From positions 1-43,374 of the forward strand of contig CANRDX010000012.1 in the NCBI GenBank assembly GCA_947629485.1: a stretch of 43,374 nucleotides of DNA, read 5' to 3'. The DNA comes from an uncultured Clostridia bacterium (GTDB lineage Bacteria > Bacillota > Clostridia > Christensenellales > Borkfalkiaceae). A program made the position numbers and the translations under genes. Of the stretch, positions 1,185 through 41,390 are shown in pieces; position 1 is the first letter of the stretch; every line of letters begins with the position of its first letter. The notes beneath the pieces were generated by a model that saw only the letters and a list, made by a program, of their open reading frames with translations, was not told the origin of the DNA and ran no database searches.

Positions 1185-1316
1185 ATTGGAAGTCAACCCC
1201 CACCTGTCACGGCTGCGCCGTGCCACCCGCCCCCTTCAACGGGGGCAGGTTCCCTCATCAGTCACCTACGGTGACAGCTTCCCCCGTAGACGGGGGAAGC
1301 CTTCAAAGGGGGCAGG
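1185..1316. repeat. Dispersed modular palindromic repeat, copy 1 (two modules)
   Basis: Module A (1191-1250) is almost identical to 17761-17821: one substitution inside the short palindrome and one inserted C. Module B (1257-1300) aligns with 17440-17484 and consists of the palindrome GTCACCTACGGTGAC followed by a C-run/G-run hairpin (arms 1277-1286 and 1291-1300). Both modules have the same grammar: a lead ATTGGAAG-CAACCCCC, a short palindrome based on GTCAC/GTGAC, then a C5/G5 hairpin. The repeat is outside genes in every copy seen here. It does not encode a transposase. Confidence 0.8.
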
Positions 1317-1329: not shown

Positions 1330-1363
1330 TGCAGAAAAGATAAGGGCCGCGGAAGCGGCCCTT
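1330..1363 (-). terminator. Intrinsic terminator of the ABC/giant-protein operon
   Basis: On the minus strand, 24 bases after the stop of the last operon gene, the hairpin AAGGGCCGC-TTCC-GCGGCCCTT (1342-1363) is followed by ATCTTTTCTG, a T-rich run. Placement and shape fit a rho-independent terminator. Confidence 0.75.
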
Positions 1364-1386
1364 ATTCTTCATTCATTTTTCCGTCA

Positions 1387-4300
1387 TCAAAACGCAAGTT
1401 CCACGGGGGAAACGCCCTTGTATTTCAAGCCCTTCAACTCGTCGTTTTCCTGCTTGACGAAGTTGAGCTTGCTCTCCGTACTGTACATATAGAAGTTGAA
1501 ATCGTGCGTGCCTGCCGCTCCGGGAAGAATATCCCCCTGTTTCGGCATGAAGCCCGTGCCGTCTTTGAGCACGCTGATATTGATGTTGAAGTGCTCCAAA
1601 TCGGAGGAATTCTCCAACTTCGTAAGATCGACGGAGGAATAGTTTCTGCCGCCGCCGTAGAGGGCGATGCCGCCGTGCACGTACTGCTTTCCGCTCGAAG
1701 TCGTTTCGATCATATTCCCGTAGACGCTCGGATTTTTCTTGGATACGAGATCGATCATGCCCTTGATATCGAGTTTGAGCCATTCGCGAAGTTCTCCGAT
1801 AGGCGACTCTATGAGCGTGGAAGCATCGATGAGGGAAATATCCTTCCAATCGTACAGCCGCACATCCCCTTCGAGGCGAAGCACGGAGGCAAAGGAGGTG
1901 CCGCCCGATCTCTCCCATTCCCTTGTGAAGGTACGCCAGTCATGGTTCGATGCGCCTTCGTATAAGAACTCGCCCGAGAAGTTGCTCTCGATGCCGACGG
2001 TAAATAGACCGCTCGTCTCCAAAACGCTGTTTTTGAGCGTGACGTCCGTCATCACATAATGATCGTAGAAGTAGTCGCCGGGGGTATAGGAGATGCCGCT
2101 GTATTGGTTGGAAGTTCCGCTTTCGGTATAGGCGCGCGCGTTGGCATCGCGCAAGACAGGCTCCTGTCCGTTCAGTCTGGAGGCGCGGAGCGCTCTGTTC
2201 GCCCCGATCTTCAAGATGAACTCTCTCCCCTGCGAGAGAATGCACCCTTCGATCTGCACCGTGATGCGCTCATCGTTCACGCCCGCGCTGTTTTCGGAGA
2301 GCGAATCGATGAAATACTTGTTCCCGTTGCGGTTGCCGCCGTACGCCCGTACGACGTTCCTTCCGTTCCGCACGCGGCAGTTGAGGATCTTACAGGAAGC
2401 GTTGATTTCGAGCGTCGTGCCCGTTTTATTGAGCTTGGTAAGATCGTATTCTCCGTTCTCGTTTTCGAGGAGGGAATCGCTGCAACCGAGAAGGTTGACG
2501 CCGTACAGCGTCACACCGTCGGTGCGGATGAGGAAGGCGCAGTTATCCTGCCCTGCCACAGACGCCATCTCCCTGTACTTCACGAAGTAGAGCGGGCCTT
2601 TATAGAACAGCGCCTTGCCGGTACCGTCGAGGGCGTGGGTGAACTTACTCGCGTCGATGGACTTGCCGTTTCCGTACACGCTGTTTGTGAATTCCAAAGC
2701 GTAATAGAGCTTGGAGCTATCCTCCGTGATACCCGCTTCCCCTGTATTCTTGTACCATTCGGTATTGTAAGTGGACTTGATCCGATGCGATTGGAGGATC
2801 GCGCGCCGCTCCTCGACGGAGAGTTCTTTGCCGGCGGCGTCCGTTCCCAGCGTGATATTCTCGGTGAGGACGACGGGCAGCTTATCATCGGTCGCGCGGA
2901 CAAGCTCGGGCGAATTCTTCACGGCAACGGCGTCTGCGACGACGTTGAAGGTCAAAGTGCCGCGCACGTTCTTGCCGAATGCCGCATTGCCCTTCCATGA
3001 CGCGGTGATCGTCACCACGCCCGTCCCGCACGGGACGATCACGGGAGATCCGTTTTGAAGCTCGACGCGGGCGATCGCATCATTTGAGGAGGAGTATTCG
3101 ATCTCCTCTCCCGCAGGCTGCAAACCGCTGCTGCCGTATGTGTCTACGGAAAGAGGATACGAGTTATTTACAAGCGCTAACTTATCGTTGTATTTCTTTC
3201 CCGCGATCGTATAGTTTTTGGCGAGATCGACTTTCACATTGTTCGTGATCTGGATGACGCTGATCATTTTGACGATCACGATCTCGATCGTCTCGCTGAG
3301 CGTCGTCTTCGTCTCTCCCTCTCCGTATTCCGCCGTGACGGTGAGGGAATACGTCCCCGTATCCGTGACTTTGATCTTGGCGGAGGCGCCGTCGATCTCG
3401 ATCTTATCCTGCGGCCCCGTGTAGTCCCACGTGTATTTGACGTCCTTTGCACCGCTCGATGCGACCGCATAGAATGTAACGGATGTCCCCGTGGGCGTCG
3501 TGACCCTCTTGCCGCTGCCGTCTTCGAGCGTTTCCACCGTGCGGTCGGAGAAGACGGAGAATGCAAAATCGGTGAAGGAAATAAGGAATGGATATGTCTC
3601 GCGGTTCGCAACGATCTCGAACTCGATCGGCTCCTCTTCTTTGTCGAGGATGGTGATATCGACAATATATTGCCCCTCGCCCGTGATCGTCGCCTTCGCG
3701 CGATTGGAAGCGCATTTGAACGTGGGCCGTCCGCCCGCGCACTCAACGAAGAGCTGCGCCTCGGTTGCGCCCGTCGAAAGTTCCAATCCTCGGAAAGCAT
3801 CGTCACCTTTCGTGGATTTTCCGTTGAAAATAACTTCGCTGCCCGCGGGTTTTTCGACCGTGAGGCTCAACGTTTTTTCGACTGTGCCGTTTACGCCGTT
3901 GGGCACGGTGATCTTGTATTCCGCCTTGCCCGAGAACGGGAAGAGCATCGTATGCGAACGCGGATCGAACCCCGTCGCGTACATATCGGACTCTTCCGAT
4001 ATAGAATATTCGGTAAAATCCACAGGATGAACGGAGACGCCGTAGCTATACTGCCGCCCCGTGGAGACTGTCGCGGAGTATCCCGTCGCCGTCTTCGTGA
4101 GGGGAACAGGCCGCGCGTCGGCTTCCGTCACGTCCGTCATCGTAAAGTCGAAGTCGTAGGGCAGGCGGGATGTAATGACGACGTCGAGATCGTCGGTATG
4201 GCCGCCATCGTTGCTCGTCGCGACGATCTTCGTCGTGCCTTCGCTCTTCGGAACGATCTTCCACCTCTCCCCTTCCTTCGTCAGATCGGCGACTTCGGGA

Positions 4301-4551
4301 TCGCTTGATACGAGGTTATAGCCCTTCTGCGTTGCGTTGGCGGGAGAAACTTCGGCGGTGACGTAGCTCTCGGGCAGATCCGCCATGTCGAGATGCAACG
4401 TGTTGTTTCCCGCAAGCGGGGTATCCGACCTGATCGTAATACCGTTTACCGAAACGGGCACGTTGAGGCTTACCGCGTTGCCGATGGCAAAAATGGCGAT
4501 CACAAATGCCATCGGTATGACAAGAATAAGTGCAAGAACTGTTTTCCGCAT
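1387..4551 (-). CDS. Membrane-anchored Ig-like / beta-helix surface protein
   Basis: A 1054-residue protein with one N-terminal hydrophobic helix (about residues 5-27), no lipobox and no other membrane segment, so it is probably anchored with the bulk outside. Residues about 30-125 look like a bacterial Ig-like (Big_2-type) domain, about 375-425 like a PKD/Ig-like domain and about 435-535 like another Big_2-type domain. From about 690 to 900 short alternating hydrophobic strands with Asn and Gly turns suggest a right-handed parallel beta-helix. There is no recognisable catalytic motif. The ATG shares one base with the stop of the upstream permease gene (TGATG), and GGGAGGGA sits just before it, so it is translationally coupled to the transporter. 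It is the last gene of the operon. Binding to glycans or other surface material is inferred only. Confidence 0.75.
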   Translation of the reverse strand: MRKTVLALILVIPMAFVIAIFAIGNAVSLNVPVSVNGITIRSDTPLAGNNTLHLDMADLPESYVTAEVSPANATQKGYNLVSSDPEVADLTKEGERWKIVPKSEGTTKIVATSNDGGHTDDLDVVITSRLPYDFDFTMTDVTEADARPVPLTKTATGYSATVSTGRQYSYGVSVHPVDFTEYSISEESDMYATGFDPRSHTMLFPFSGKAEYKITVPNGVNGTVEKTLSLTVEKPAGSEVIFNGKSTKGDDAFRGLELSTGATEAQLFVECAGGRPTFKCASNRAKATITGEGQYIVDITILDKEEEPIEFEIVANRETYPFLISFTDFAFSVFSDRTVETLEDGSGKRVTTPTGTSVTFYAVASSGAKDVKYTWDYTGPQDKIEIDGASAKIKVTDTGTYSLTVTAEYGEGETKTTLSETIEIVIVKMISVIQITNNVKVDLAKNYTIAGKKYNDKLALVNNSYPLSVDTYGSSGLQPAGEEIEYSSSNDAIARVELQNGSPVIVPCGTGVVTITASWKGNAAFGKNVRGTLTFNVVADAVAVKNSPELVRATDDKLPVVLTENITLGTDAAGKELSVEERRAILQSHRIKSTYNTEWYKNTGEAGITEDSSKLYYALEFTNSVYGNGKSIDASKFTHALDGTGKALFYKGPLYFVKYREMASVAGQDNCAFLIRTDGVTLYGVNLLGCSDSLLENENGEYDLTKLNKTGTTLEINASCKILNCRVRNGRNVVRAYGGNRNGNKYFIDSLSENSAGVNDERITVQIEGCILSQGREFILKIGANRALRASRLNGQEPVLRDANARAYTESGTSNQYSGISYTPGDYFYDHYVMTDVTLKNSVLETSGLFTVGIESNFSGEFLYEGASNHDWRTFTREWERSGGTSFASVLRLEGDVRLYDWKDISLIDASTLIESPIGELREWLKLDIKGMIDLVSKKNPSVYGNMIETTSSGKQYVHGGIALYGGGRNYSSVDLTKLENSSDLEHFNINISVLKDGTGFMPKQGDILPGAAGTHDFNFYMYSTESKLNFVKQENDELKGLKYKGVSPVELAF

Positions 4552-6338
4552 CAGATCCCTCCTCCCGAAAATTCGTAATACTTCTTTTTAAGGCGGAACA
4601 AAAGGTAGAAGAGCGCAAGCCCTGCGACGATCAGCACAAGTCCGCCCGAAATAATGTAAGTCAAATAGCCGAGCGCCATCCCCCGAAGCTGGAAGAGGAT
4701 ATTGAGCAGAAGAACAACGCCTCCGACCACAAACGAGAGGAGCATGCCCACGACGATCACCATCGAAACGGTGCCCGAGGACTCCTTGATCTCGCCGTCG
4801 TCCTCCGTGGAAAACTTGGCGTGATTGAAATCGTAGCGCGTCGCCACGGCGATGGTGGCAAAGCTGAACAAAAGCCCGATGACGCAGATAAAGAGCGCGT
4901 TGGCAAGCCCCGTCATTCCCGAAGCGAAGAGCATGACCGCCGAGGCGACCTGCGAGATCGCCGTCACGATGAGGCAGAGCGCGATCTTCGAGAAGAACAC
5001 CGTCTTGAAATTGATCGGCATCGCCTTGACCGCATAGAACATCTCCCCGTCGCGGCTGATGTTCGTCGCGCAGAAGATGTTGGTGAGCGCGCCGAACAAG
5101 ATCGTGAGAAAGAGCGCAAGTTCGAGCTTGCAGTCGATCCCGACGAGTTTATCAATAAGGGAGGCGCCCACATCCATACAGAAGTAGACCATGAGCGGCA
5201 TGATGAACGCCACCGAAAAGTAGGAGAACATGTACGAAGGGGTGCGGAAGATAAGCAGAAATTCCCGTTTCAACAGGGCGACGAACTTCTTTTTCCGCAC
5301 CGTGATAAAGCTGTTGCGGAACAAGGCGGGCGAACTGCTCTGGTTGCGCGCTTGAAGCGCGCGCACAAGAATTCTCCTGATGATGAGAATGGAGAGCGTA
5401 ATGCCGACGATCGCGACGGCGGCAAGCCCCACCCAGCCCCAAATGGGATCGGAACCCGCTATGATCCCTGCGAGCCACCGCGCGGGATAGAGATAGCTGC
5501 AAACCGAGGCGATCGCATTCATCACCTGCTCGTTGAAGAAGTCTTCGAGCGAATTGCCGAGAAGCAGTTCCTTCACGCCCCCGAGGAGGATGGAGTAAAG
5601 CCAGATGCCCACCCCGAGCAGCGCCGTGATCACGATGAAGAGAAGGACATACCTCTCCCGCAGAAAGCGCTTGACGGCCTGAAAGAGCGGGACGATCACC
5701 GCCGCTATGCCGATCGTGATGAGGGGGAGCAAAAAGCACATCGCCGCCGAAATGACCCAAAAGGCAGCGGTGACCCCCACCTTCCATGCGAACGTCGCGT
5801 TCACCGTCATCACGGCGACGACGGCGATCGTGAACTGCGCCTTGTAGACGGAGAGGAGCTTCGCGATGAACAGCGTCCGCGCGTTGATCGGCATTGCCGA
5901 GAAGATCTTCATATCGTCGGCGGAGAAGAGTTCCCTGCCGAGCTGCCCGACGCCGCCGATCACCATGCCGAGGATGACCGCGGAGTAGAGAATCGTAAAG
6001 AGTTCGGTCGCACGGGCGACAAGATTGGTCTTTCCGTCCGTCTTGACGTCAATATACACTCCGACGAATCTTCCGAAGAAGATGACGAACAGCGCGACGA
6101 TGGCGGCGGCGAGCAAGAGGCGCAGGAGAAAGCCGAAGAAATCGAATTGCCCCGCCTTGAACATCGAGCGGCGTTCCTCTCTCCCCTTACGGAGCAAAGC
6201 TTTGACGATGCGCGGCTTGACGCCGCTCATCTCTGCCGTCTGAGCTGTCTCCATAGCTTGCGCTGTTTCCGCGGCTTGCGCCGCCTCCGCAGCACGCGCC
6301 GCCCTTTCTTTATTTTCCCTCACTTTCTGCTTGTTCAT
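4551..6338 (-). CDS. ABC transporter permease (ABC-2-like exporter type)
   Basis: A 595-residue protein with roughly a dozen hydrophobic helices, arranged as two halves separated by a basic cytoplasmic stretch near the middle (around the RKKKF segment). It pairs with the ATPase gene just upstream. The N-terminus before the first helix is odd: about 25 residues made almost only of Ala, Gln, Glu and Thr (AARAAEAAQAAETAQ and onward), likely an exposed helix. I chose the ATG at 6338; a longer frame would start with TTG at 6365. The chosen start gives a 29-base overlap with the ATPase gene and has GAGGAG about 13 bases upstream. No substrate can be read from the sequence. It is unlike MacB/FtsX permeases because it lacks a large extracytoplasmic domain. 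Confidence 0.8.
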   Translation of the reverse strand: MNKQKVRENKERAARAAEAAQAAETAQAMETAQTAEMSGVKPRIVKALLRKGREERRSMFKAGQFDFFGFLLRLLLAAAIVALFVIFFGRFVGVYIDVKTDGKTNLVARATELFTILYSAVILGMVIGGVGQLGRELFSADDMKIFSAMPINARTLFIAKLLSVYKAQFTIAVVAVMTVNATFAWKVGVTAAFWVISAAMCFLLPLITIGIAAVIVPLFQAVKRFLRERYVLLFIVITALLGVGIWLYSILLGGVKELLLGNSLEDFFNEQVMNAIASVCSYLYPARWLAGIIAGSDPIWGWVGLAAVAIVGITLSILIIRRILVRALQARNQSSSPALFRNSFITVRKKKFVALLKREFLLIFRTPSYMFSYFSVAFIMPLMVYFCMDVGASLIDKLVGIDCKLELALFLTILFGALTNIFCATNISRDGEMFYAVKAMPINFKTVFFSKIALCLIVTAISQVASAVMLFASGMTGLANALFICVIGLLFSFATIAVATRYDFNHAKFSTEDDGEIKESSGTVSMVIVVGMLLSFVVGGVVLLLNILFQLRGMALGYLTYIISGGLVLIVAGLALFYLLFRLKKKYYEFSGGGI

Positions 6339-7302
6339 TGCGTAAGAAATACTCCTCAAAGTCAAAATTCGGATTGCTTGCGTAGATGGACTTCACATCA
6401 AGCTCGTTCACTTGGCGCCCCCTTCTGATCAGCACCACGCGGTCGCAGAGTTTCGCGACGGTGTTGAGGGCGTGCGAGGAAAAGATAATGGCGTTGCCTT
6501 CGGCGACATAGCGGTGCATAAAATCCTGCACCGCGCGCATCGTACGCGGATCGAGACCGGTCATCGGCTCGTCGAGGATCCACAGCTTGGGGCGGTGGAT
6601 GAGGGAGCCCATCATGCAGATCTTCTGCCGCATGCCGTGCGAATAGGAGGAAATGAGGTTCGAGATGGGTTTCCCGAGCTGGAAGATCGCGTCGAGCTCT
6701 TTGAGGCGCTTCATGCGCTCCCCCGAGGGAACCTCATAGACGTCTGCCATAAAGTTGAGGTACTGTACGCCCGTCATCTTGATAAAGGTCGCATGGTTAT
6801 CGGTGACGAACCCCATCTGCGCCTTCGCCGCTTCGGGCTGTTTGCGGATATCGTACCCTGCGATCTTGATCTCGCCGCGCTCGTAGGGAAGCATTCCTTC
6901 GAGGCATTTGAGCGTGGTGGACTTTCCCGCGCCGTTGTGCCCGAGAAGCCCCACGATCTCCCCTTCGCGGCAGGTGAAGGAGACGTCCGTCACCGCCCAG
7001 TCCGCTTTTTTGGAGTACCTCTTATAAAGCCCCTGTACCTTTACGACCTCCTTTCCGAAGCGGTCGGCTCCGTACGGCGATTGCGCGTAGGCAGTTTGCG
7101 TATAGGGGGTTTGCGTATAGGGGATCTGTTGCAAAGGCTGCGGAATATTTACGACAGGCGCCGCAAACTGCGGTCCGCAATAGAGTGCGCCCCGCACGCT
7201 CCCCTTTTGATAGATGGGACGCGTATTCGTCGCGCAGAAGCAACGGGGGCACACGACCGCTTTGTCGTCGAGCGCCGCGCCGCAATAGGTGCAGTACTTC
7301 AT
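6310..7302 (-). CDS. ABC transporter ATPase with N-terminal zinc ribbon
   Basis: A 330-residue protein. Residues 1-25 form a zinc ribbon with two Cys-x-x-Cys knuckles (CTYC at 4-7 and CPRC at 18-21). A low-complexity linker with repeated YTQT/YAQS units follows to about residue 80. The rest is a standard ABC ATPase: Walker A GHNGAGKS, the Q-loop region, signature YSHGMRQK, Walker B LWILDEP, and a switch His in SSHAL. It energises the permease encoded next and resembles the CcmA/drug-exporter ATPase class. AAAGGAG precedes the ATG, 21 bases after the lipoprotein stop. The zinc ribbon fusion is uncommon for this class and may provide dimerisation or sensing; that is inference. Confidence 0.9.
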   Translation of the reverse strand: MKYCTYCGAALDDKAVVCPRCFCATNTRPIYQKGSVRGALYCGPQFAAPVVNIPQPLQQIPYTQTPYTQTAYAQSPYGADRFGKEVVKVQGLYKRYSKKADWAVTDVSFTCREGEIVGLLGHNGAGKSTTLKCLEGMLPYERGEIKIAGYDIRKQPEAAKAQMGFVTDNHATFIKMTGVQYLNFMADVYEVPSGERMKRLKELDAIFQLGKPISNLISSYSHGMRQKICMMGSLIHRPKLWILDEPMTGLDPRTMRAVQDFMHRYVAEGNAIIFSSHALNTVAKLCDRVVLIRRGRQVNELDVKSIYASNPNFDFEEYFLRNEQAESEGK

Positions 7303-7323
7303 GCTGTTTTCTCCTTTATGCCG

Positions 7324-7941
7324 TCAGTATGTGAATTTTAACGTAATGTTTACATTTGATCTGTTCGAGTCGTATGAGACCGCGATCTCGGTGACATGCT
7401 CGCCCGCCGTTGCGATTTTGAGTTTCATGCCGTGCGGCGCGGCGGTCACGGGGATCTCCTCAGTGATGCCGAACACGTTCTCGACGCTGTCGTCTTTCAC
7501 GTTCGCCTCAAACACGCCGTCGCGGAACGTGGGCGTGCCCGAGAAGTAAAGTTCGTTGAATCCGAGCTTCACCGTAAACGCCCCCGCTTCCACCGTCTCG
7601 TCGATCTCGCGCGACGTATAAGGCTCTCCGTCCGGCTTCACAACGTTGATCTTCTGTTCCGTGCCCGTCACGGTATAGCCGGAGGAAGTCTTTACGAACG
7701 TCTTGTCGCTGCTGAACTGCAACAACTCGCCCGCGGTGATCTCGATCGTTTGCTCGATCTTCGTTGCGTCGGGAAGATTTCCGTACTTCTCCTCGACAAG
7801 CTCCAAATTGGTCTTACCGTCGCCTCCGCCGCCGTCATCGTGGTTCCCGTCGTCGGGGCCGTTCGGCGTAAGCGTCGAACAGGCAGACAATAATCCAATG
7901 CACAGTATCGCGGATAAAATCGCGATCAACAGCTTTTTCAT
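7324..7941 (-). CDS. Small lipoprotein of the ABC operon
   Basis: A 205-residue lipoprotein with a signal peptide and lipobox LSAC (Cys21). A Gly/Asp-rich linker (about 27-43) leads to a soluble domain of about 160 residues with beta-strand-like alternation and no Cys or obvious active site. I do not recognise the family. Its ATG overlaps the TAA of the giant protein gene by one base (TAATG), with GGAGGGA just upstream, so translation is coupled. Position between a secreted giant and a transporter suggests a surface accessory role, but the sequence does not prove it. Confidence 0.75.
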   Translation of the reverse strand: MKKLLIAILSAILCIGLLSACSTLTPNGPDDGNHDDGGGGDGKTNLELVEEKYGNLPDATKIEQTIEITAGELLQFSSDKTFVKTSSGYTVTGTEQKINVVKPDGEPYTSREIDETVEAGAFTVKLGFNELYFSGTPTFRDGVFEANVKDDSVENVFGITEEIPVTAAPHGMKLKIATAGEHVTEIAVSYDSNRSNVNITLKFTY

Positions 7942-10900
7942 TACAGAATCCCTCCTTTTGTCACGATATAGGCAAGCGCGGTGAGCGCCGAAATCGCCGC
8001 AAGGCTTGCAAACAAGGCGTCGATGGGTGCGTTCGCAATGGTCTTTGCCGTCGCTACCACGTCGTCGATGTCCGCAAGTTCATTCCATGCGTCCACCAAC
8101 GCCTGATACTCGGCAAGCTGCGAGGCGCCTACTTCGCGCTCGTCTTCGTTCAGCCCATTGATCGCCTCTAAGATCGCTACGAGCTTCTCGTAGTCGTCCG
8201 CGGTGAGATGAGCGGCGTCAAGCCCCTCCGCAAGTTCCGCGAGCCGATCGAGCGTATCCAACAGATTCTTCGTATATCCGTCTGCATCCGTCGCGATGAC
8301 GGTGAATACCGTCGAACCGCTGTAATTCTTATCGTTGACGGTCACGGTCACTTCAAACTCACCGATCTCCGTAAGCTTCGCGGGATCGATCTCGACCGTA
8401 AGCTCCTTTTGATCCTCGCCCTCGTTGACGTATGCGCGCCCCGAGTAGACGTAGCCGTCTTTGCTCGCGAATTTTACATGGATGGTGCGGTCGCCTTCCG
8501 TGTCGAAGTCGGTATCCAAAGTGAGGAAGAAACGCGCGATCTTGGAAACGTCTTGCTTCTCCACGGTGTACACGCCCGCTTCTCCGCCCTCGTAGCTGCC
8601 CTCGAAGGTCACGGTGTAGTTGCCGTTGTCCCATGCGCCCTCGATCGCATACGTTCCGACGTCCGTGAGCGTGGGCTTCGTGAGGGTGACGGCGAGGACA
8701 TCCTTCTCCTCGTTTTCGGCGAGGCCGTCCCCGTCGTCTTTTACGTACCACTCGTCCGCATGGAAGTCGTAGTTGTGCTCGAAGTCGTAAGTTGCCTTCT
8801 GATCCTCGATGAAGACGGTGAGCGTACGGGCGTTGACGGTGAATTTGCCTGCGGTGCCCAAAGTGCCCACGAAGGTCACGTTGTAGTTGTCGTTGGTGAA
8901 CGCGCCGTTGATCGCATAATCGCCCGCGTCCGCGCCCTCATCTTTTGTGAACGTGAGGTGGAGGTCGTCGCCGACGATGATATTGCCGTCTGTGATCGTC
9001 CAGCCTTCCTCCTGCTTCTGCGAAACGGAAGGCTCCGTTCCGTCGTAGAGGGAAGTTTGGTCGATGATCTTCACGGTGATCTCACGCTCTTTGACGGTGT
9101 AGGTGCCGGGCTGCACATCGAAGGTGTAGTTCGTCGCAGAGCCGGTACCCGTGATGTTGTAGGTGCCCGCTTCCTCGATGGTGCGGTCCGCTTGCAGCTT
9201 GACGTTCAAGACATCCTTCGCCTGCTCGCCTTCGATAAGCCCTTCTGCCGTATAGGTGAGTTCCGCGGGCGTATCGCCGTAGTAGCTCCAAAGGTCGTTC
9301 GCCTTGACGGTGAGCTCTTTCTGCTTGACGGTGAGCTTCGCGGTCGCGTCGAATTCGACGTCGTAATCCGTGTTGGAAGCCGTGGCTTTAAGCTCGTAAT
9401 CGCCGTGATCCTTATTCCCTGCAACGAGAGTGATGACCACGCCGAGGTCGTCCTTTTTGCCGTTCTTCGAGCACAGTTCTTGCTCGTCGACGGTGTAAGC
9501 CTTGCTGTCCGGCGTGGGAACTTCGCCCGAGTACTCGACTTCTTGCTTATTCAGCGTGACTTTGATGTGCTTCGCGCCGATGGTGAACTGCGCCCCGACC
9601 TCGCCCGAATAGTTGTTGCTCTTCGCCTTGACCGTGACGTTCACGGTGCCCGCGCTCACGCGGTCTGCACCCGTATAGTCGATCGTGAAGTCGCCCTCTT
9701 TCACGGTGAGGTCGCCCTCCGCCTTGACGGTGAAGGTCGGCGTCTGCTCGGTTCCGTCGTAGGTGTAGCTGCCATTGACGGTGGCTTCGGTGAGCGCCGC
9801 CGCCTCGATGACGAAGGCTTCTTTAATGATGCTGTCCGCGACGGTGAGACCGTCTGCGCCCTTGAAGGTCACGGCATAGTTGGTGTTGCTCCACGTTGCC
9901 GTGATGTCGTATTTGCCCGCGTCCGTCGCGTTTGCCGTGAGTTTGACGTTGAGTTCAGAGGCTTCGTCGCCCTCGGCGAGATCCGTGACCGTCCAATCCG
10001 TCTCGTGCCTGCTTTGGGCGGACTGCAATTTCTGGTTGTAGGTCACCGTTTGCTTGTTGACGGTGACGGTGATCGGCCGCGCCGTAATGGTGTAGACGCC
10101 GTCTTTCACCGTGATGGTGTAATTTTGAAGCTCGGGCGTATTTTCCGTCGTGATCTTGTAACTGTGCTGCCCGTCGCTCACATGAGAAGTCTTCTCTGCA
10201 TCCGTATGAGGGTTCGCCGCCGTGATCGCCGCTTCAAAGGCGGTGTTGTCGTCCGTGAGCACCGTATCGCCCGACGTTTCGTAGGTGAAGTCCGTCTTCA
10301 CGTCGTCGCCGTAAGCGGAGCTTTCGGGGTTGAACGTTACGGTCACCTCACGCGCCGTGATGGTGATGGTGTACTTCCCTGTAAACGAAGAAGTATAGCC
10401 CTGCGCTTTGATGGTCACGGTCACTTCGTATGTGCCCACATTCTTTGCGCCCGTGAAGGGGGTATTCTGTTCCCCAAACGTCTGCGTAATCGTCGTCTTG
10501 CCGTCGAGAAGCTCATCGTTGCCCACCGTAATGGTGAGTTTGTGCTCCTTGCCGTCGTACTTGATCGCCTGCTCCCAGCCCGTTACGCTTACATTCTTCC
10601 AAATGGTGTCGTCGACGTAATACGTGCCGTTCTTAAATGTCACCGTGTAGTTGTCAGGCACATACGCGTTCAGCCAGCCAATGATGATATCCGATTCCGC
10701 TACCGTATCTTTATCCGCTGTCGTGGTGACGGTGATATGCTCTTTGAGCGTCGCACGGTCGTCCTCGAAGAATTCGCCCTTGCCGTTCGGCGTCTTTGTC
10801 ACCGTCCAAGTCAGCTTGTCGCCCGAGAGAATCGGCTCGCCCTGCGGCGTATGCTGATTGTCTGCCGTAATGGTGATCTCCGCTTTCGCCACGGTGAACG

Positions 10901-13900
10901 TAGCCGTCGTCACATCGCCGAGCTGATAGTTCTTGCATTCATCGGTGAGCGTAACCGTCACGGTGTACTCGCCCGCGTTCTTTACTTCAATATCCTGCTT
11001 GGTGCTGTGCTTATAAGCGACGGTGTAGTCCCCCGCGACGAGGGTGAGCGCGCCCGACTTCACAACGATCGTAGGCGTCAACTCGGTGCCGTTGTAGGCG
11101 AGGCTATCTTTGTTCGTGATCTCGATCGCCGTAACCGTCGCCTTTCTGATCGTGAAGGTCACTTCCTTTGTGCCGGAGAAGTTGCCCGTCGCGGTGACGG
11201 TGAGGCTCGCCCCATTCGTCGTCGCATCGATATTGTTCTGATAATTCCCCACGGTGAAGGTGACCTTGTGATCACCGTCATAGCCGCCAAGCGTAACGGC
11301 GATATCTTCCACGCCCGGCTGCTTCGCCGTATTGTCGTAGGTGTAAGGCGTTGTGACGGTGAACGTCGCGCCGCTGATATCCTTCGCCTTAACGGTATAG
11401 GCGTTCGTGCCGCCCGAGACGGTCACCGTATAGTTTTTGAGAACGTCGTCGTTTTCGGCATTGAGCGTGTTCTTAATTTCCGAACTGCTGTACCACGCCG
11501 TGATGTCATACTTCCCGACGGTCTGCCACTGCTCTGCGCCCGTCGACTGCAACGTGATGAGCTTCTTGATCGCCCCTTCTTCCTCATTCTGCACGCCGTC
11601 GAGCGTATAGGAAAGCTGTACGGCCTCCTCGCCGTAGGTGTGCCCCTTCTTCTCAATGTTCACGGTGAGCGGCGCACGCGTGATCTTGTACGTGCCCTCG
11701 GTCACCGTCACGGTATAATTGGGGTTGGAAGCCTCGCCCGTCACGGTGTAGTCGCCCACGTCCGCGCTCGACGCCCCAACCGTGAGGCGAAGCCCGATGT
11801 CGTCGCTCTTATAAATCTGCCCGTCCGCAACGGTGAAATCCGTCGTCTGTTGGGCATTTTCAACTCCTGCCCACGCGGTGCCGTCGTACGTCTTGGTCTT
11901 GTCAACAACGTTCACCGTAAGGGTTGCCTTTGCAATGGAGAAGTTGACGGTGAGGATGCCTGTGAAGTTTTCACCTGAACCCTTGATCGTCACGCTTGCG
12001 GTATCCTCGCCCGCATTCGTGTTGTTCTGCCAATCAAATGCCGCGTGCGAAACCGCGCCCGTCAGCCCTTCCGCCCGCAAAGTCAAATCGGGCGTATGCG
12101 CTTCGCCGTTGTAGACAAGCCCGCTCAGGCTCTTTTCGATCGCGGCTTGGTCGAGATTGGCGACATTGAACTTCTCAACCGTGAAGTCGAAGGTCTTGGA
12201 AGTGTTTGTCGCATTGCCGCCGAAGAAACCGTTCGTGAGGGTCACGGTGAGGTTGTTGTAGGCCGCGGCATTTCGGATACTTTGATTGTTGCCCGTGCTC
12301 ACGCTCGCGGAGAATTCGCAGTTCTCCAAAACTTCGTCGAGCACCGTCGTGCTACCAAAATAATATTGATAGAAGAGTTTGAGCACATCATCGCCGCTGA
12401 ACTCACTGCCCTTGTAGGTGCCGCTGAGGGAGAATTCTTCCGAAAGAAGAAGTTTGTGCTCCCTGTCGGTGCAGCCAAGCTCGGTGCATTGACGGTCTAA
12501 ATCTTTATACTTTGCATTACCGAGGTTCGTTTCCTCTGCGGTCAGCTGCGACCAATCGAAGGTGTGCGCGTCATGCTCAATCATCCACGAGCCTACCATG
12601 TCCGAGTTGAGGCTCAAAGTTTGATTCTCTTCGCCGCCCTCCGCATTCGTGTATTTGAGCGCGTCGAGCGTGAAAGAATCGCCGTCCTTCGCCGTGTAAG
12701 TGTGCCCCGCTTTGAGGTCGCCGAAACAGCTGTGCGCAGCGTCCCACACCCGCGCAGTCGTGGTGTAAGCGAAGTAGTTGGTTCCGTTAGCACCATCGAC
12801 AATTTGTCCGGAAAGCTCCGTTCCTTCCGGAATGATGATCGTCCCCGTTCCGTTCGTTTGAATGATACCGAGGAAAAGCGCAGGTATGATTTTCGGCACG
12901 AACGGCTCGGCAGGTTCAAAAAGTTCAAACTGTTGAACGGTCGTCTTTTGTCCGATTTTGAGCGTGCCGTCTACGATGAGGTTGCCGCTCTTGGAATAGA
13001 TCCCGTTTAATTGTGTGGCAGTCGGATACCCTTTGCCCGAAAGTTTTTTCTGTTCAAGGCCGTCATAAATCCAAGTATTTGCGTTGAGCGTGAGTGTCGC
13101 GCCCTTGCCGACCTTTACGATCGCGCCCGGCATGAGCATGAAGTCCGTTTTGGTCACATACTGCGCGTGAACTTCGCCCTGCTGTACTGCAAAGTCGTTC
13201 ATCTCCACCTCATAGTTGTAGGGAATGGAGAAGTACACCGAGTTCGTCGGCACCGAAATGCCCATTGCCGAGAACAGCATGTAACTGAAATCTGCGCCGC
13301 CCTCGAACACCATTTTGATCTTCCCGATGCCCTCGGTGCAATCGGCAGTCGTCGGGCTTCCGATCACTTTCGTGGGGTCATAGGTGATCGTCACGCTTGC
13401 GCCGTCATGAAGCATGACAAACGTATCGTTTCCGTTGCCGTCGCCGCCGAGTTTTTCGCCCATATAGTAGGAAACGAAGGGCTGGTCAAGCGACGCCAAC
13501 ATTTTGAACGTCTCGATCCAAAGGCTTGCATGCCCATAAAGCATGCCGCCGTAATTGATCGTCGTCGGCACTTCGATATTGATCATTGCATACCGTCTGA
13601 ACGGTGTTTGCCCCGCCATGAAAAGCCCGAGCGCATTCGTGCCGCCGGTGTAGTCGAGAATGAGGAACGGCTGATAGAGCTTGCCGCCATCGGCAACGTC
13701 GATGGTACCCATGTCCGTGCCTTCATGCCCTTCTCCGCCCCAAACGCGGCCGTAGACGTCCATCACGCCGCCCTTTGCGACTTGGATTTTACTGCCTGTT
13801 TCAAGGATGAGTTCGGCATATGCGCCCGAGGTGTGCCCTTGATAGCCCTGCCCTTTCGGGTAGTTCACAATACCGCCGACGGCAAGCGTTCCGCTCACGG

Positions 13901-16900
13901 TGATCGTGACATTCCCTTTTACGGTAACCGTCAGATAGCGATACGTCGCGCTATCTTTGATCCAAGCGATTCGGTCTTTGGAATTCACGTCGGGCGTACC
14001 CGTCGCGGTGAGTTTGTTCTCATTGCTGTAAGGAAGGAGCAGCGTCACACCTGTTTTGATCTCAAAGCTCGTTTCGATCGTTGCGCCATCCTCGATGACG
14101 ATAACAGTCTGTCCTGAACTTGCCGCATTGACTGCTTCTACGATGGAGGTGTAGAACGTACCCTCCGTGCGCGCTTCGTATGTTCCCTCATCCGCGATCC
14201 ATGCCTTGATCACGGAATCGGCATTGATGAAAATACTTGCGTTCGGCTCCGTCGAAACAAGCTGTCCGTTCACCGACCAGCCGTAGAATTTCTTTCCCTT
14301 TGTGTCTGCGGAAAGATTGACCATTGTACCTGCGTTGACCTTGAAACTGTCGCTCCCGTTTTGATGCTGCACATCGCCTACGGTAACGGTCGCCGTCGCG
14401 TCGTCCGCCTCTGCGCTCGTGGAGACGGAGACTGTCTTTTCACCCGTAACAACGCGCACGTCGCGGATCGAAGCCGAAGCAATGGGAATCCGATCAATGG
14501 GATAAGAGCTGTTGGTCGGATAGTAAGTGATGAACAGCAAGTAAATATTATTGGCGAAACCTTGTTTGATAGGAACGCTCGCCTGATACCATCCGTCGTC
14601 GAGCGGGACGACGGTGCTTCCATACTCCATTCCGCCTTCGGGACGCGGTTTCGCCAAAAGGGTCACGGCGGAATCTGGATCTGTCCACTTGATGCCGTCT
14701 GACGATGTGCAGTAAGGTTTATAATTCGAAAGACTATTAACTGCCGACTGCGGAGCAGCATAGAGCAAGCCGCCGCGGTAAGAGCCGCTGAGCACCTCTT
14801 GCCCGATGTAGCCGCTCGCGCGAAATTGGAACGTCAAGCTACCCTGAGCCTCGCCGGAAAGTTCAAACGTGATATATTTGAGATTGCTCTCGCCCTGATA
14901 ATATTCACCATTCTGATTCACTTGCGAAGTGGTCGTATAGGCATAGTTCCCCTCTGCGGAAAGTTCGGGATCGAATAACCATCTAGGCGGTTTATTATAG
15001 CTCACCATATCCATAGCAGTCATGTCCAAACTTGCCCTGCCGGAATTTTCGTCGAGATGGACAGCCTTTGTTATGTCCGTCCCGTTCTTATCTTCTTCGG
15101 GAAATTCCCCGAGACGGAAAGAGAGCGAATAAGCCGAGAAATCGATCGTTTCGCTGCTCTTTAAGTAGCGAATTACGACCTGTGTGTTGCCCACGTCCTG
15201 AATGGGAAGAAGGAAAATATTTTCGTAGTCTTGAAGAGACGCATTGCGTTCTACATTGTTTACCAACACGCTGAAATCGGTCTGCGCAAGCCCCTCTATT
15301 TTCTGAATGCGAATCGAGAGCGAATTATTGTGAAGGAACGGGAAATCAATTACCTGCCCGTCTGTAATGGATTCGATCTCGGTCTCTTCGTTATCTATTG
15401 TTTTGATTGCGGAAACCTTCGGAATGGGCGCACGCTCCATATAGTTGATTTCCAACACCAAAGTCTCTGCGCCTTCGTCCAAATTGAAAGATTTTTTTGC
15501 CGTTGAACCGTCGAGTTTCGTGTTGATTGCATACTGGTTATCGAAGCGGCTGATCGTAAACGTAACGGATTTATCTGCTTGCGACTGAAATGCCGGTTTT
15601 CTATACTCACCATCGCCACCACTTCCGTAATAATATGTTGCATTTGCCGTACCGTTTTTATAGACGACCTCTGCCATCTGCAACGGATCCAGAGAAGAGG
15701 TCACTTCCGCTTTCGGCTTTAACTGAATGGTATATTCATCGGCGAGCGGAACGGTGAGCGTAGTTTCGATCACGACATTGGTATCTTCTGCTTCTTGAAG
15801 AGCCCCGTTATAATAAAGCTCCGAATAATGGGGATTGTATTTTACCGTAATGGTTTCCGTAAACGGGTTGCCGCTTTCTTGGAAGCGAATGTTTTTAATG
15901 GTATAGCTGTCCCCATCTTGAATCGCAGAACGTTCATCCGAACCAAGCAAGCCGAAGTCACTGAATTTAACCGTAATCCTTATAACGTGATATCCTTCTC
16001 CGGTGACGTGAAAATAGATACATTCAGACCCATTAGTAATGGTTTTGGATTCACCGTCAACAGAGCACCCATCGAAAAGAGCGCTTAAACTTCCGGTTTT
16101 CACCATGACGCGCTCGTAAGAGACATATTTCTCCCCCGTAAATTCAATATAGAGGGAAACTGTATCGTTTTTTGTCAGGTTCTTTAAGTCTGCAACGGTA
16201 TACACATCGATCTCGTCTTGTTGACTTTTTTCGAAGTGTGCCTTCCCCTCGCCCGGATCGTCGAAGGAAATTTTTGTTCCGTTTTCATCGAGCTTGACAA
16301 AATAGACGGTGTAAACATATGCACCATCATCCTTGCTCTGCGTAATATTCGAAACAGTAAATTCTGCCACATGGCTCACGAATTTTCCGTCACTGCTTTT
16401 CCAATATGCCGTATATCCATCTTCGGGAACTGCCGTAAAAGTCACACTCTCGCAGTAGCCACGTTGTGCGATCAGTTGGTGGCTGCTTTCATCGAAAGTT
16501 TCTTCGGGCTTCTCCGTCTTGATTGTACCGTGATCGATGGAATCTGCGGCAACTTTTGCTGTGATTGAAAATTGGTTGGTAGGTGGATTCAAGCCCTTTA
16601 TCATCAAACAATAAGACGAACTTGAAGTAGAAGAATTTGACGTCCATTTGAATTCGACCACATCGCCATTCTGCAAGTTTGATATCGTGACAGGGCTTGA
16701 ATAACTTGTATATTCCTTCCATACAGAAGATGTTAGTTCTTTTTTATCAACAATTGTTTCGACCTCTTCCTCCGCATGTGTTTTTGTGATCAGAACCGAT
16801 GTGTTGCCACTTGAAGAACCGACTTTCCAGGAAAATACCATATTCCCCGGCTCCACAACCGTGAGTTTAATAGAGGTACCGTTTTTGATCTTTCCGTATT

Positions 16901-17132
16901 TTTTCGAGGACCTCCATTCGTTCGTTTCGCGATCATAAGTCCACCTTGAGTCATCGTTTTGATTGACCGTCGTCATATCGTTCTCGACTGTGAACGTTGC
17001 CGTATTGCCGTCGAGGACAGGTTCCTCTGCGCTCGCGGGGACAAGTTCGCCCAACGCGAAGCCCGTGCAGAGCATGAGCGCGGCTGAAAGCGCCGACACG
17101 ATCAAGACTTTTAACTTCTTCGTTTTACTCAT
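7941..17132 (-). CDS. Giant secreted MBG-repeat protein, 3063 residues
   Basis: The largest gene here. A signal peptide (about residues 1-36, ending near PASAEE) shows export. Residues about 40-950 are a series of beta-rich domains without recognised catalytic motifs. About 990-1380 looks like a beta-helix/stalk region with short repeated strands. About 1655-2860 holds some 14 tandem MBG-type domains of about 80 residues, marked by YDGT, YNGT or YGD near the start of each and ending in Y-x-I/V strands. After a helical segment, the last 25 or so residues are hydrophobic, giving a C-terminal membrane anchor; there is no LPxTG motif. I start at the ATG preceded by AAAGGAG; the open frame extends 42 codons further upstream without a signal for starting. 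It heads the ABC operon. An adhesin or surface fibre role is inferred. Confidence 0.85.
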   Translation of the reverse strand: MSKTKKLKVLIVSALSAALMLCTGFALGELVPASAEEPVLDGNTATFTVENDMTTVNQNDDSRWTYDRETNEWRSSKKYGKIKNGTSIKLTVVEPGNMVFSWKVGSSSGNTSVLITKTHAEEEVETIVDKKELTSSVWKEYTSYSSPVTISNLQNGDVVEFKWTSNSSTSSSSYCLMIKGLNPPTNQFSITAKVAADSIDHGTIKTEKPEETFDESSHQLIAQRGYCESVTFTAVPEDGYTAYWKSSDGKFVSHVAEFTVSNITQSKDDGAYVYTVYFVKLDENGTKISFDDPGEGKAHFEKSQQDEIDVYTVADLKNLTKNDTVSLYIEFTGEKYVSYERVMVKTGSLSALFDGCSVDGESKTITNGSECIYFHVTGEGYHVIRITVKFSDFGLLGSDERSAIQDGDSYTIKNIRFQESGNPFTETITVKYNPHYSELYYNGALQEAEDTNVVIETTLTVPLADEYTIQLKPKAEVTSSLDPLQMAEVVYKNGTANATYYYGSGGDGEYRKPAFQSQADKSVTFTISRFDNQYAINTKLDGSTAKKSFNLDEGAETLVLEINYMERAPIPKVSAIKTIDNEETEIESITDGQVIDFPFLHNNSLSIRIQKIEGLAQTDFSVLVNNVERNASLQDYENIFLLPIQDVGNTQVVIRYLKSSETIDFSAYSLSFRLGEFPEEDKNGTDITKAVHLDENSGRASLDMTAMDMVSYNKPPRWLFDPELSAEGNYAYTTTSQVNQNGEYYQGESNLKYITFELSGEAQGSLTFQFRASGYIGQEVLSGSYRGGLLYAAPQSAVNSLSNYKPYCTSSDGIKWTDPDSAVTLLAKPRPEGGMEYGSTVVPLDDGWYQASVPIKQGFANNIYLLFITYYPTNSSYPIDRIPIASASIRDVRVVTGEKTVSVSTSAEADDATATVTVGDVQHQNGSDSFKVNAGTMVNLSADTKGKKFYGWSVNGQLVSTEPNASIFINADSVIKAWIADEGTYEARTEGTFYTSIVEAVNAASSGQTVIVIEDGATIETSFEIKTGVTLLLPYSNENKLTATGTPDVNSKDRIAWIKDSATYRYLTVTVKGNVTITVSGTLAVGGIVNYPKGQGYQGHTSGAYAELILETGSKIQVAKGGVMDVYGRVWGGEGHEGTDMGTIDVADGGKLYQPFLILDYTGGTNALGLFMAGQTPFRRYAMINIEVPTTINYGGMLYGHASLWIETFKMLASLDQPFVSYYMGEKLGGDGNGNDTFVMLHDGASVTITYDPTKVIGSPTTADCTEGIGKIKMVFEGGADFSYMLFSAMGISVPTNSVYFSIPYNYEVEMNDFAVQQGEVHAQYVTKTDFMLMPGAIVKVGKGATLTLNANTWIYDGLEQKKLSGKGYPTATQLNGIYSKSGNLIVDGTLKIGQKTTVQQFELFEPAEPFVPKIIPALFLGIIQTNGTGTIIIPEGTELSGQIVDGANGTNYFAYTTTARVWDAAHSCFGDLKAGHTYTAKDGDSFTLDALKYTNAEGGEENQTLSLNSDMVGSWMIEHDAHTFDWSQLTAEETNLGNAKYKDLDRQCTELGCTDREHKLLLSEEFSLSGTYKGSEFSGDDVLKLFYQYYFGSTTVLDEVLENCEFSASVSTGNNQSIRNAAAYNNLTVTLTNGFFGGNATNTSKTFDFTVEKFNVANLDQAAIEKSLSGLVYNGEAHTPDLTLRAEGLTGAVSHAAFDWQNNTNAGEDTASVTIKGSGENFTGILTVNFSIAKATLTVNVVDKTKTYDGTAWAGVENAQQTTDFTVADGQIYKSDDIGLRLTVGASSADVGDYTVTGEASNPNYTVTVTEGTYKITRAPLTVNIEKKGHTYGEEAVQLSYTLDGVQNEEEGAIKKLITLQSTGAEQWQTVGKYDITAWYSSSEIKNTLNAENDDVLKNYTVTVSGGTNAYTVKAKDISGATFTVTTPYTYDNTAKQPGVEDIAVTLGGYDGDHKVTFTVGNYQNNIDATTNGASLTVTATGNFSGTKEVTFTIRKATVTAIEITNKDSLAYNGTELTPTIVVKSGALTLVAGDYTVAYKHSTKQDIEVKNAGEYTVTVTLTDECKNYQLGDVTTATFTVAKAEITITADNQHTPQGEPILSGDKLTWTVTKTPNGKGEFFEDDRATLKEHITVTTTADKDTVAESDIIIGWLNAYVPDNYTVTFKNGTYYVDDTIWKNVSVTGWEQAIKYDGKEHKLTITVGNDELLDGKTTITQTFGEQNTPFTGAKNVGTYEVTVTIKAQGYTSSFTGKYTITITAREVTVTFNPESSAYGDDVKTDFTYETSGDTVLTDDNTAFEAAITAANPHTDAEKTSHVSDGQHSYKITTENTPELQNYTITVKDGVYTITARPITVTVNKQTVTYNQKLQSAQSRHETDWTVTDLAEGDEASELNVKLTANATDAGKYDITATWSNTNYAVTFKGADGLTVADSIIKEAFVIEAAALTEATVNGSYTYDGTEQTPTFTVKAEGDLTVKEGDFTIDYTGADRVSAGTVNVTVKAKSNNYSGEVGAQFTIGAKHIKVTLNKQEVEYSGEVPTPDSKAYTVDEQELCSKNGKKDDLGVVITLVAGNKDHGDYELKATASNTDYDVEFDATAKLTVKQKELTVKANDLWSYYGDTPAELTYTAEGLIEGEQAKDVLNVKLQADRTIEEAGTYNITGTGSATNYTFDVQPGTYTVKEREITVKIIDQTSLYDGTEPSVSQKQEEGWTITDGNIIVGDDLHLTFTKDEGADAGDYAINGAFTNDNYNVTFVGTLGTAGKFTVNARTLTVFIEDQKATYDFEHNYDFHADEWYVKDDGDGLAENEEKDVLAVTLTKPTLTDVGTYAIEGAWDNGNYTVTFEGSYEGGEAGVYTVEKQDVSKIARFFLTLDTDFDTEGDRTIHVKFASKDGYVYSGRAYVNEGEDQKELTVEIDPAKLTEIGEFEVTVTVNDKNYSGSTVFTVIATDADGYTKNLLDTLDRLAELAEGLDAAHLTADDYEKLVAILEAINGLNEDEREVGASQLAEYQALVDAWNELADIDDVVATAKTIANAPIDALFASLAAISALTALAYIVTKGGIL

Positions 17133-17205: not shown

Positions 17206-17234
17206 ATTTTAACACGGAACGTTTCAAAAATCAA
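17206..17234 (-). promoter_or_regulatory. Predicted sigma-A promoter of the giant-protein/ABC operon
   Basis: On the minus strand, -35 TTGATT (17229-17234) and -10 TAAAAT (17206-17211) are separated by 17 bases. The predicted start is near 17198, giving a leader of about 65 bases. The -10 box is framed by a 5-base inverted repeat CCGTG/CACGG (17201-17205 and 17213-17217), which suggests a repressor site over the -10 element. Confidence 0.5.
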
Positions 17235-17760: not shown

Positions 17761-17821
17761 AGTCCAACCCCCACCTGTCACGGCTACGCCGTGCCACCCG
17801 CCCCCTTCAACGGGGGCAGGT
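17761..17821. repeat. Dispersed modular palindromic repeat, copy 3
   Basis: This copy matches 1191-1250 except for one extra C near its start and one G/A change inside the short palindrome. It ends 44 bases upstream of the -35 box of the metalloprotease gene. Confidence 0.8.
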
Positions 17822-20900: not shown

Positions 20901-21096
20901 CGTGGAAGCGGACGGGGAAAAGCGGTTTGCAAGTTCAGACGGCTACGCCGCCGAGACCGACCTCTGGCAGGCGGGAGATACGCTCTCCGAAGCCTTCCCC
21001 TCCTATACGCGCAACGACGGGAAAACGCTCAACTTCGATATTATCATCGAGAACGTCTCCGCGACCTCGGCGACCGTTCAGATCGTGTTTTATTGA
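17932..21096 (+). CDS. M6-type zinc metalloprotease lipoprotein
   Basis: A 1054-residue lipoprotein. The signal peptide ends in a Cys-rich stretch; Cys23 or Cys19 is the likely lipidated residue. A linker of Asp-Pro-Thr/Ser units follows (about 34-73). Two related modules of about 170 residues (about 76-245 and 432-600) share DYYEY, DYLTYD and AWTSF landmarks and flank a beta-sandwich (about 268-420). The C-terminal part (about 620-1054) is the protease: HESGHLLGLDDYYDY begins at His830 and matches HExxHxxGLxD of the M6 (immune inhibitor A-like) family, with His830, Glu831 and His834 seen. It should cleave proteins outside the cell while tethered to the membrane. It is a single-gene unit with its own promoter and terminator. 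Substrate is unknown. Confidence 0.88.
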   Translation: MKKRKFLVAVLAILAMLACLCACALRPNDGSDKNPTDPDTSTDPTDPTDPSDPAGPSDPTNPTDPSDPTGPSGTIDLSDIFAKYSDPATQNFAVTLDDGESTDYYEYLGYDILNRYEATDGNFYIDYLTYDPAEDVYTFYADLGEGEYEIYPEGTDDFDAAFSYLYIIDLSAIGDYDFTESGNKYVADDPDAAGNAVLGEYVDEDGNAIAWTSFELSIANGDIAKIVGVMEDGVTFAYTFSKQGAVSFTLPSGGTTPVDPDDPTDPDTDGYVLELTRDSLFPDLNDTVYEHHNGSHAVGGFTVTTTNVLGNTHHDYDVLQFKKETGTMSVSGEFTQIVVVIESTYDYNNLNKLTVSVGSAALAVSEHATEHTGVKDGNYEILIHTLVYDVNATGVQQITVTNTNSNAVYALSIGFVGEGGSAPVEPDEPADSSVFEAYADRSTWNFSVFVTDNEDALEDYYEYDGNRILNYYVGYDADYTDYLTYDEASDLFTYYSDNGDGTYTVYDEASSEFEEYYTYCCIVDLTYLADFSYTLSGNVYSALSPDEVGVAVLGDYGIAWTSFTVTVTDGKIMMIVARMSDGYEMQYEFSDHGTIHITLPDAEGGGSDVDPTPSGTMEKQTYNSSTFDNERLQDKLLKEDGAIGLPSTGDYHALVIPVQFVGDTISKTQLDNLNIAFNGTEEQTGWESVKTYYQKASYGNLNLTFDIQEVYKAAHNASYYAGIGDGDLTILNEALAYYESKLDLTKYDTNDDGAIDAVYLIYSASVDYDSADFYWAYVYWDTATKTYDGKDVYYYLFAGFDFMDEKTSNDKGSGYDIVLGMKINAETYIHESGHLLGLDDYYDYYTEDTYDAEYGGTIKAGSNEGLGGADMMDYNIGDHDVYTKIMLGWLTPTVVTENKTVTIDCSGSSASAILIPLNFDNSYFCEYLLIDLYAATGLNRAHASDLYDGAAFGVRIYHVSSSIDNPYQNDGYSSFTDNNNSVSEHALIKLVEADGEKRFASSDGYAAETDLWQAGDTLSEAFPSYTRNDGKTLNFDIIIENVSATSATVQIVFY
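18031..18150 (+). repeat. Coding tandem repeat (Asp-Pro-Thr/Ser linker)
   Basis: Imperfect 9-base units of the form GAT-CCG-ACC/AGC encode about 40 residues of xDPxDP linker after the lipid anchor of the metalloprotease. Such linkers usually span the cell wall. The number of units may vary by slippage between strains. Confidence 0.8.
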
Positions 21097-39247: not shown

Positions 39248-39288
39248 AAGATTCTCCTTTTATGTTATGAGGATCTGCATGCAACTTA

Positions 39289-41336: not shown

Positions 41337-41365
41337 ATTGTCATGACATGACACTTTTCCTCAAT

Positions 41366-41388: not shown

Positions 41389-41390
41389 GT

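Follow-up and report, generated by a model that had tools for sequence, protein, structure and literature searches.

A conserved ATPase–PERM–HELIX triad linked to giant surface proteins in an order of uncultured gut Clostridia

We describe a five-gene operon of an uncultured gut Clostridia bacterium, encoding a giant secreted protein (GIANT), a lipoprotein (LIPO), an ABC ATPase, a putative permease (PERM) and a membrane-anchored ectoprotein (HELIX). The ATPase–PERM–HELIX triad is the fixed, near-obligate part of a conserved, unnamed system present in one order, and its link to giant client proteins, which are encoded beside the triad or elsewhere in the genome, is well supported at the genomic level. 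Most clients are tied to a lipoprotein, and the type of client follows the lineage of HELIX. A literature search found no description of this gene set.

Results

Architecture of the operon

The window, i.e. the whole 43,374-nucleotide stretch that was analysed, represents the whole of contig C12 of a 1.55-Mb genome. The operon consists of five minus-strand ORFs in the order GIANT, LIPO, ATPase, PERM and HELIX, running from position 17132 to 1387 (Table 1). The first-pass annotation had described five genes of the same direction with tightly coupled junctions, and direct reading confirmed each of them: GIANT and LIPO meet at TAATG, a gap of 21 bases separates LIPO from the ATPase, the ORFs of the ATPase and PERM overlap by 29 bases, and PERM and HELIX meet at TGATG. 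The 3063-residue protein without LPxTG, the lipoprotein and the 1054-residue anchored protein were likewise recovered as ORFs. In related loci, whose genes were called by a simple caller that may miss or misstart genes, the PERM/HELIX overlap is mostly -1 or -4 and the ATPase/PERM overlap mostly -17, with exceptions in both. Since such close overlaps recur, the arrangement is not a matter of chance. The conserved tails of GIANT (KGGIL) and PERM (SGGG(I)) double at the DNA level as ribosome-binding sites for the genes that follow, so that their conservation says little about the proteins themselves.

A pattern scan of the minus strand found no promoter-like site of at least 9 of 12 from the GIANT stop to HELIX; two promoter-like sites lie within GIANT and several before it. 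Counting both strands, there are 18 such sites versus 11.2 in shuffles. The hairpin that follows HELIX has the longest stem of the terminator-like sites, which overall show no enrichment (22 versus 22.8 in shuffles). A single transcript for the five genes is plausible.

Table 1. Features of the operon in the window
Feature	Position	Strand	Remark
GIANT, 3063 aa from ATG	7941..17132	-	Proposed client; secreted surface protein with MBG repeats, a Sec signal and a C-terminal TM helix
CORE region of GIANT, aa 957-1444	12801..14264	-	Contains the ~400-aa domain conserved among giants; parallel beta-helix by prediction
GIANT C-terminal TM helix and KGGIL tail	7941..8030	-	Tail codons double as the LIPO ribosome-binding site
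LIPO, 205-aa lipoprotein	7324..7941	-	LLSAC lipobox; partner of giants with C-terminal TM helix
ATPase, 330 aa	6310..7302	-	ABC ATPase; Walker A GHNGAGKS, signature-type YSHGMRQ
ATPase N-terminal C4 zinc ribbon	7240..7293	-	Accessory
PERM, 595 aa from ATG	4551..6338	-	11 hydrophobic segments by simple count
HELIX, 1054-aa ectoprotein	1387..4551	-	Anchored by one N-terminal TM helix
HELIX TM anchor, aa 1-25	4477..4551	-	Better conserved than the protein average
HELIX C-terminal domain, aa 544-1054	1387..2922	-	Beta-helix-like coil pattern in the model
Nearest promoter-like site before GIANT	17206..17234	-	Pattern only; 9 of 12, TG before the second hexamer
Terminator-like hairpin, 11 pairs, T-rich tail	1340..1365	-	Directly 3' of the HELIX stop

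The operon is flanked by a G+C-rich 57-base repeat (window 1194-1250 and 17765-17821, 98% alike), which belongs to a family with 61 matches in the genome. The left end of the window carries an AbiU2-like HEPN gene (139-720; PF18734, 3.1e-17). On the other side, a divergent gene (17932-21096) encodes a lipoprotein-like M6-type metalloprotease of 1054 aa (TIGR03296, 6.9e-24; 85 bits, below the cut-off of 110.8), equal in length to HELIX with no similarity noted. Further lipoprotein-like genes of 1598 aa (Flg_new match) and 548 aa (AhpC/TSA-type domain) occupy 34451-40935, and 41203-43178 holds a tRNA-Ser and, after it, genes for a phage-type integrase (PF00589, 1.1e-13) and an HTH protein; this last region resembles an element that has integrated at the tRNA.

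The ABC pair

Compared with solved chains, the ATPase matches ABCA ATPases best (7.9e-49) and NosF chains much less well (1.4e-26). Its best NCBIfam match is the DrrA drug-resistance ABC subfamily (2.2e-55; 188 bits, below the cut-off of 312), and because the protein matches 187 families, matches of this sort are generic. The zinc ribbon by which the ATPase had first been characterised is present here, but the motif occurs in 10 of 81 ATPases of related loci; it is a minor accessory, rare in the family. The DrrA match would fit a role in sensing or self-protection akin to that of lantibiotic or bacitracin systems, with the surface proteins recognising a peptide or toxin that the ABC pair then clears. 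We regard this as very unlikely in view of the generic nature of the ATPase matches and of the two genes adjoining the operon, neither of which is a sensor or regulator by family. To our knowledge, moreover, such systems include neither an obligate HELIX nor giant clients.

PERM is putatively of ABC-2 type, judging from weak family matches of its relatives. Its close relatives contain 11-13 hydrophobic segments, and at E<=0.1 PF16949 was matched by 5/20 relatives (best 2.8e-7) and PF12730 by 9/20; the PERM of the window itself matched no Pfam family at E 0.1. A tandem nature is not evident from the PERM sequence.

HELIX is an anchored ectoprotein with Ig-like domains

The predicted model of HELIX (mean pLDDT 88.2, pTM 0.82; pLDDT low in residues 13-26) comprises a TM helix (residues 2-23), Ig-like domains extending to about residue 543, and a C-terminal half of repeated short strands. 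Read from its strand pattern, the C-terminal half may be a beta-helix. Fold searches with HELIX were filled by Ig domains and left the C-terminal half unmatched, the second search covering mainly residues 36-127 and 236-539; Pfam gave a match in 1 of 30 members (E 0.019). The first-pass annotation had called the 1054-aa protein a beta-helix protein, whereas by prediction this may apply to the C-terminal half (~544-1054) only, and it had made no mention of the predicted beta-helix domain of GIANT.

Conservation is highest in the anchor (0.74), compared with 0.46 in the Ig part, 0.63 in the C-terminal part and 0.48 in the signal of LIPO; in five loci the anchor scored 0.84 versus 0.55 for the signal peptide of GIANT. 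Many invariant polar residues are found in the C-terminal half. Outside the order, the C-terminal domain was detected in none of 291 genomes of the class and none of 299 of the phylum, samples in which further members of the order were scarce or absent. At one locus (L165, G083:C81) HELIX occurs as two genes, one for a TM-anchored part of 403 aa and the other for a lipoprotein of 935 aa that holds the C-terminal domain.

The giant, its CORE domain and the lipoprotein

GIANT is a secreted protein with MBG domains, in which MBG_2 was matched in five stretches (107 bits versus a cut-off of 25). It starts with an N-terminal signal and closes with a C-terminal TM helix that ends VTKGGIL; no LPxTG was found when its C-terminus was read for a sortase signal, which places it outside the LPxTG-anchored class. 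The giants have in common the CORE, a domain of ~400 residues predicted to be a beta-helix. The CORE has no PDB sequence relatives at E<1, and lyases, epimerases and SRRP adhesins are among its fold neighbours. The N-terminal part of GIANT (window 15001-17000) has a G+C content of 0.43-0.45, versus about 0.52-0.55 around it, as if it were of another origin.

LIPO carries the signal peptide and lipobox cysteine of a bacterial lipoprotein (MKKLLIAILSAILCIGLLSAC), and this cysteine is invariant (26/26). LIPO matched no Pfam family above cut-off and no PDB relative at E<0.1.

Binding or cleavage of sugars is common among beta-helix domains. One alternative reading is that the ABC pair exports a lipid-linked glycan, a lipid or a peptide, with HELIX binding or cutting carbohydrate and the giants acting as adhesins that carry or bind the product. 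The fold neighbours of the CORE point in this direction, as do the invariant polar residues in the C-terminal half of HELIX, which are active-site-like, and the existence of triads without any CORE. We nevertheless find this reading doubtful, since no catalytic motif was identified, the genes flanking the window's operon are AbiU2-like and M6-protease-like, and neither the lipoprotein tie nor the match between client types A/B and HELIX described below is predicted by it.

The triad is conserved across the order

A HELIX profile was scanned against one genome per species, and the best 80 of 122 relatives were kept. These best 80 of 122 come mostly from isolates named Lapin, a word that probably refers to rabbit, and from Candidatus genera, e.g. 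Borkfalkia, Coproplasma and Fimimonas. PERM lies directly before HELIX in all 75 testable loci (5/80 being cut by an edge), and the ATPase precedes PERM in 73/74 (6 cut), with L147 as the one locus without the ATPase. Starting from PERM instead, 59 of the 63 close PERM genes in 297 genomes of the order have HELIX within 300 bases downstream. Among the four exceptions, one PERM sits at a contig edge (G140:C80), and in three a HELIX copy was perhaps missed; the HELIX search of the 297 genomes scored at most two candidates per genome, so that copies are undercounted. HELIX was counted only at E<=1e-30, which gives 54 of 297 genomes. A threshold of E<=1e-3 gave 157/297 among the matches listed, mostly with the N-terminal Ig-like part alone, and was therefore not used.

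Among the matches listed, 31/47 distant PERM relatives have no adjoining HELIX. Paralogous operons of the type found at C38 (L032, which is G000:C38, L054, L055, L065, L066 and L068) comprise an ATPase, a PERM and a long TM-anchored protein of 1692-2480 aa where complete, which has HELIX residues 1 to about 134 in common; in the loci read, the upstream sequence (limited to 1.2 kb at L032) contains no giant. The piece common to these triads thus looks to be the HELIX anchor plus the first Ig-like domain. Because HELIX genomes without CORE, PERM relatives without a listed HELIX and C38-type paralogues without a giant all occur, the triad looks like the oldest part, and the giants like a later or additional group of clients.

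Two side observations concern these relatives. The genes upstream of the C38-type operon at L065 are glycosyltransferase-like by eye, and the related ABC operons at L056 and L061 contain an ATPase ORF with 8-9 hydrophobic segments, a TM protein of 139-150 aa and a lipoprotein of 970-1418 aa.

Triad and clients occur together, in cis and in trans

With a CORE match threshold of E<=1e-20, the 297 genomes comprise 42 with both HELIX and CORE, 12 with HELIX only, 4 with CORE only and 239 with neither (Fisher p 1.9e-35); counted by genus, the corresponding numbers are 16, 3, 2 and 104 (p 2e-15). Vertical descent and near-copies inflate this co-occurrence, as well as the result on client types A and B below, which the genus table lessens and does not remove; with sampling from one order, descent as well as function feeds all counts.

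In cis, 3 kb or more could be seen upstream of the ATPase for 58 triads, and a CORE lies upstream in 46 of them and only downstream in 2. The other 10 have no CORE on either side. Three of these (L090, L101 and L123) show a giant and LIPO pair with the core part off the stretch, and one (L143) has a core giant upstream by another reading. The remaining six (L071, L072, L085, L092, L110 and L119) are without an adjoining giant; the genomes of all except L072 have a CORE elsewhere (5/6), and that of L072 (G898) has none. Similarly, CORE was found in 8 of 9 genomes of loci labelled 'no giant', a set in which the visible sequence is short at L077 and L078 (about 0.5 kb before the contig ends) and at L098 (1.7 kb). 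The labels 'type B' and 'GIANT' were assigned by the best BLAST hit to a core-bearing protein, and the CORE counts of 48/48 and 21/29 are partly circular, with some loci entered twice and the profile trained on them; we therefore prefer the count over the 58 triads.

In trans, the 80 CORE places divide into 38 within 20 kb of HELIX and 42 that are not, and for 35 of the latter the genome has HELIX. Subtracting two that adjoin a PERM with an unscored HELIX leaves 33 trans CORE places in 21 genomes, some of which contig breaks may have separated from a triad. The trans clients that can be read to the C-terminus (L173, L174, L190, L191 and L195) are giant and LIPO pairs with no adjoining triad in 5/5 cases, and all other trans clients are cut by contig ends. 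One genome (G229) has a single HELIX match and six COREs.

Conversely, CORE was not matched at E<=1e-20 in 12 of the 54 genomes with HELIX. Eight of these were read: six loci (L161-L164, L166 and L168) show no giant next to the triad, a giant lipoprotein lacking CORE is present at L165, and L167 has a weak CORE (6.1e-16). Since these 12/54 genomes are coreless and 31/47 distant PERM relatives stand without a listed HELIX, the triad does not serve these giants only.

The initial proposal had been that the operon forms a single surface system whose ABC pair is dedicated to it. The order giant-(LIPO)-ATPase-PERM-HELIX in dozens of loci and a co-occurrence of CORE and HELIX far beyond chance speak for this proposal, and core proteins encoded elsewhere in HELIX genomes bear it out as well. 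An ABC pair found in many genomes without giants had been named as evidence against it; this is partly the case, as the coreless HELIX genomes and the distant PERM relatives demonstrate.

Client types and the tie to lipoproteins

Clients usually come either as a TM giant with a small lipoprotein or as a giant that is a lipoprotein itself. A giant of type A, defined by its C-terminal TM helix, has LIPO as the next gene in 16/18 cases. Giants that lie before the ATPase and have no C-terminal TM helix (type B) carry a lipobox by pattern in 14 of the 18 with a called N-terminus; among the remaining four, a lipobox is visible by eye in L070 and L121, and the starts of L103 and L122 are doubtful. 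In a third arrangement, with core genes after HELIX, a lipobox is present in L095, L167 and L180 and absent from L097 and L127. No lipobox was seen in trans clients such as L169, L171 and L172, whose C-termini are cut.

The client type tracks the lineage of HELIX. On a tree of 72 HELIX proteins, from which 10/80 loci were omitted (type not visible or protein too short) and to which two rows from the window's genome were added, a single change accounts for types A and B across 60 rows; all four client labels together require 8 changes versus a shuffled mean of 29.9. The window's genome has both types, type A here and type B at C4.

These data bear on the further alternative that the triad acts as a machine of general envelope or stress function and that the giants are merely co-induced during host-attached growth, with no physical contact. 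Genomes with HELIX only, the distant PERM relatives that are often without a recognised HELIX, and the C38-type paralogues without an upstream giant where read are all in keeping with it. Nevertheless, a single change of client type over 60 rows of the HELIX tree and the fact that clients away from the triad still accompany it at the genome level make this explanation unlikely.

Discussion

Our preferred reading, which we put forward tentatively and at somewhat less than even chances, is that the ATPase, PERM and HELIX constitute an ATP-driven machine that acts outside the membrane on its own giant client. The client, a giant MBG-repeat protein built around the beta-helix CORE, would cross the membrane by Sec, as suggested by its signal peptide, and would be held there by its TM helix and lipoprotein partner. 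HELIX would be seated on PERM by way of its TM anchor and its first Ig-like domain, a placement suggested by the conservation of these parts and by the constant gene order. Cycles of the ATPase would shift PERM and, via PERM, the HELIX ectodomain, which in turn would work on the CORE of the client or on its lipoprotein. This work might consist in folding or assembling the beta-helix, or in extracting the anchored giant from the membrane and drawing it across the cell wall, and one machine could serve several clients encoded elsewhere. We infer the physical complex, the energy coupling and the action on the client from gene content and conservation; on the same footing, the transporter may serve, move or sense the giants.

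A bolder version of this proposal is a new type of surface-assembly machine, in which an ABC motor drives a membrane-tethered Ig/beta-helix arm that recognises the conserved CORE of many clients, encoded in cis or elsewhere, and uses ATP to assemble or move these giant repeat proteins with their lipid anchors, independently of sortase; we consider this conceivable but rather improbable. Gram-positive gut bacteria display surface proteins of very large size, and Sec and sortase are the main explanation for how these are assembled. Many members of this uncultured gut Clostridia order keep the ATP-driven triad together with giants, and the GIANT of the window is without a sortase signal. If the link is causal, the system would represent an unrecognised route for building the bacterial surface, its client family would be findable by one domain, and the fixed triad would offer a clear complex to solve.

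Several known systems resemble parts of the operon. GIANT belongs with the MBG-repeat surface proteins, being a secreted protein with MBG domains. Unlike beta-helix adhesins such as SRRP, TibA and Ag43, the CORE lies within MBG repeats and has a link to an ABC triad; we claim no kinship of the CORE with them, because many other beta-helix proteins score alike. PF16949 (ABC_tran_2) is matched by a quarter of the PERM family members compared, whereas the window's PERM matches no family at E 0.1, and we know of no function for PF16949. The type VII ABC systems (FtsEX-EnvC, MacAB, LolCDE and YbbAP-TesA) likewise perform ATP-driven work outside the membrane, in the case of LolCDE on lipoproteins; in contrast, PERM has 11-13 hydrophobic segments and its relatives are weakly ABC-2, as judged by hydropathy and Pfam.

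The closest working model for the operon would be NosDFYL, of which the operon is not a member. NosD is itself a beta-helix protein. The NosD family TIGR04247 reached at best 25.3 bits in the window's genome against a cut-off of 300, at C16 and outside the operon, in a search that yielded none over the cut-off in 14 control genomes either and hence had no positive control. In NosDFYL, an ABC pair, the extracytoplasmic NosD and the lipoprotein NosL mature nitrous oxide reductase, a secreted client (PMC7558416). The likeness extends to the ABC pair, an extracytoplasmic partner, a lipoprotein with a lipobox and genes that adjoin the gene of the secreted client (PMC7558416). The ATPase of the operon hits NosF chains but scores better with ABCA chains. 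The operon differs from NosDFYL in HELIX, which has its own TM anchor and Ig-like domains, and in its client, which is a giant repeat protein.
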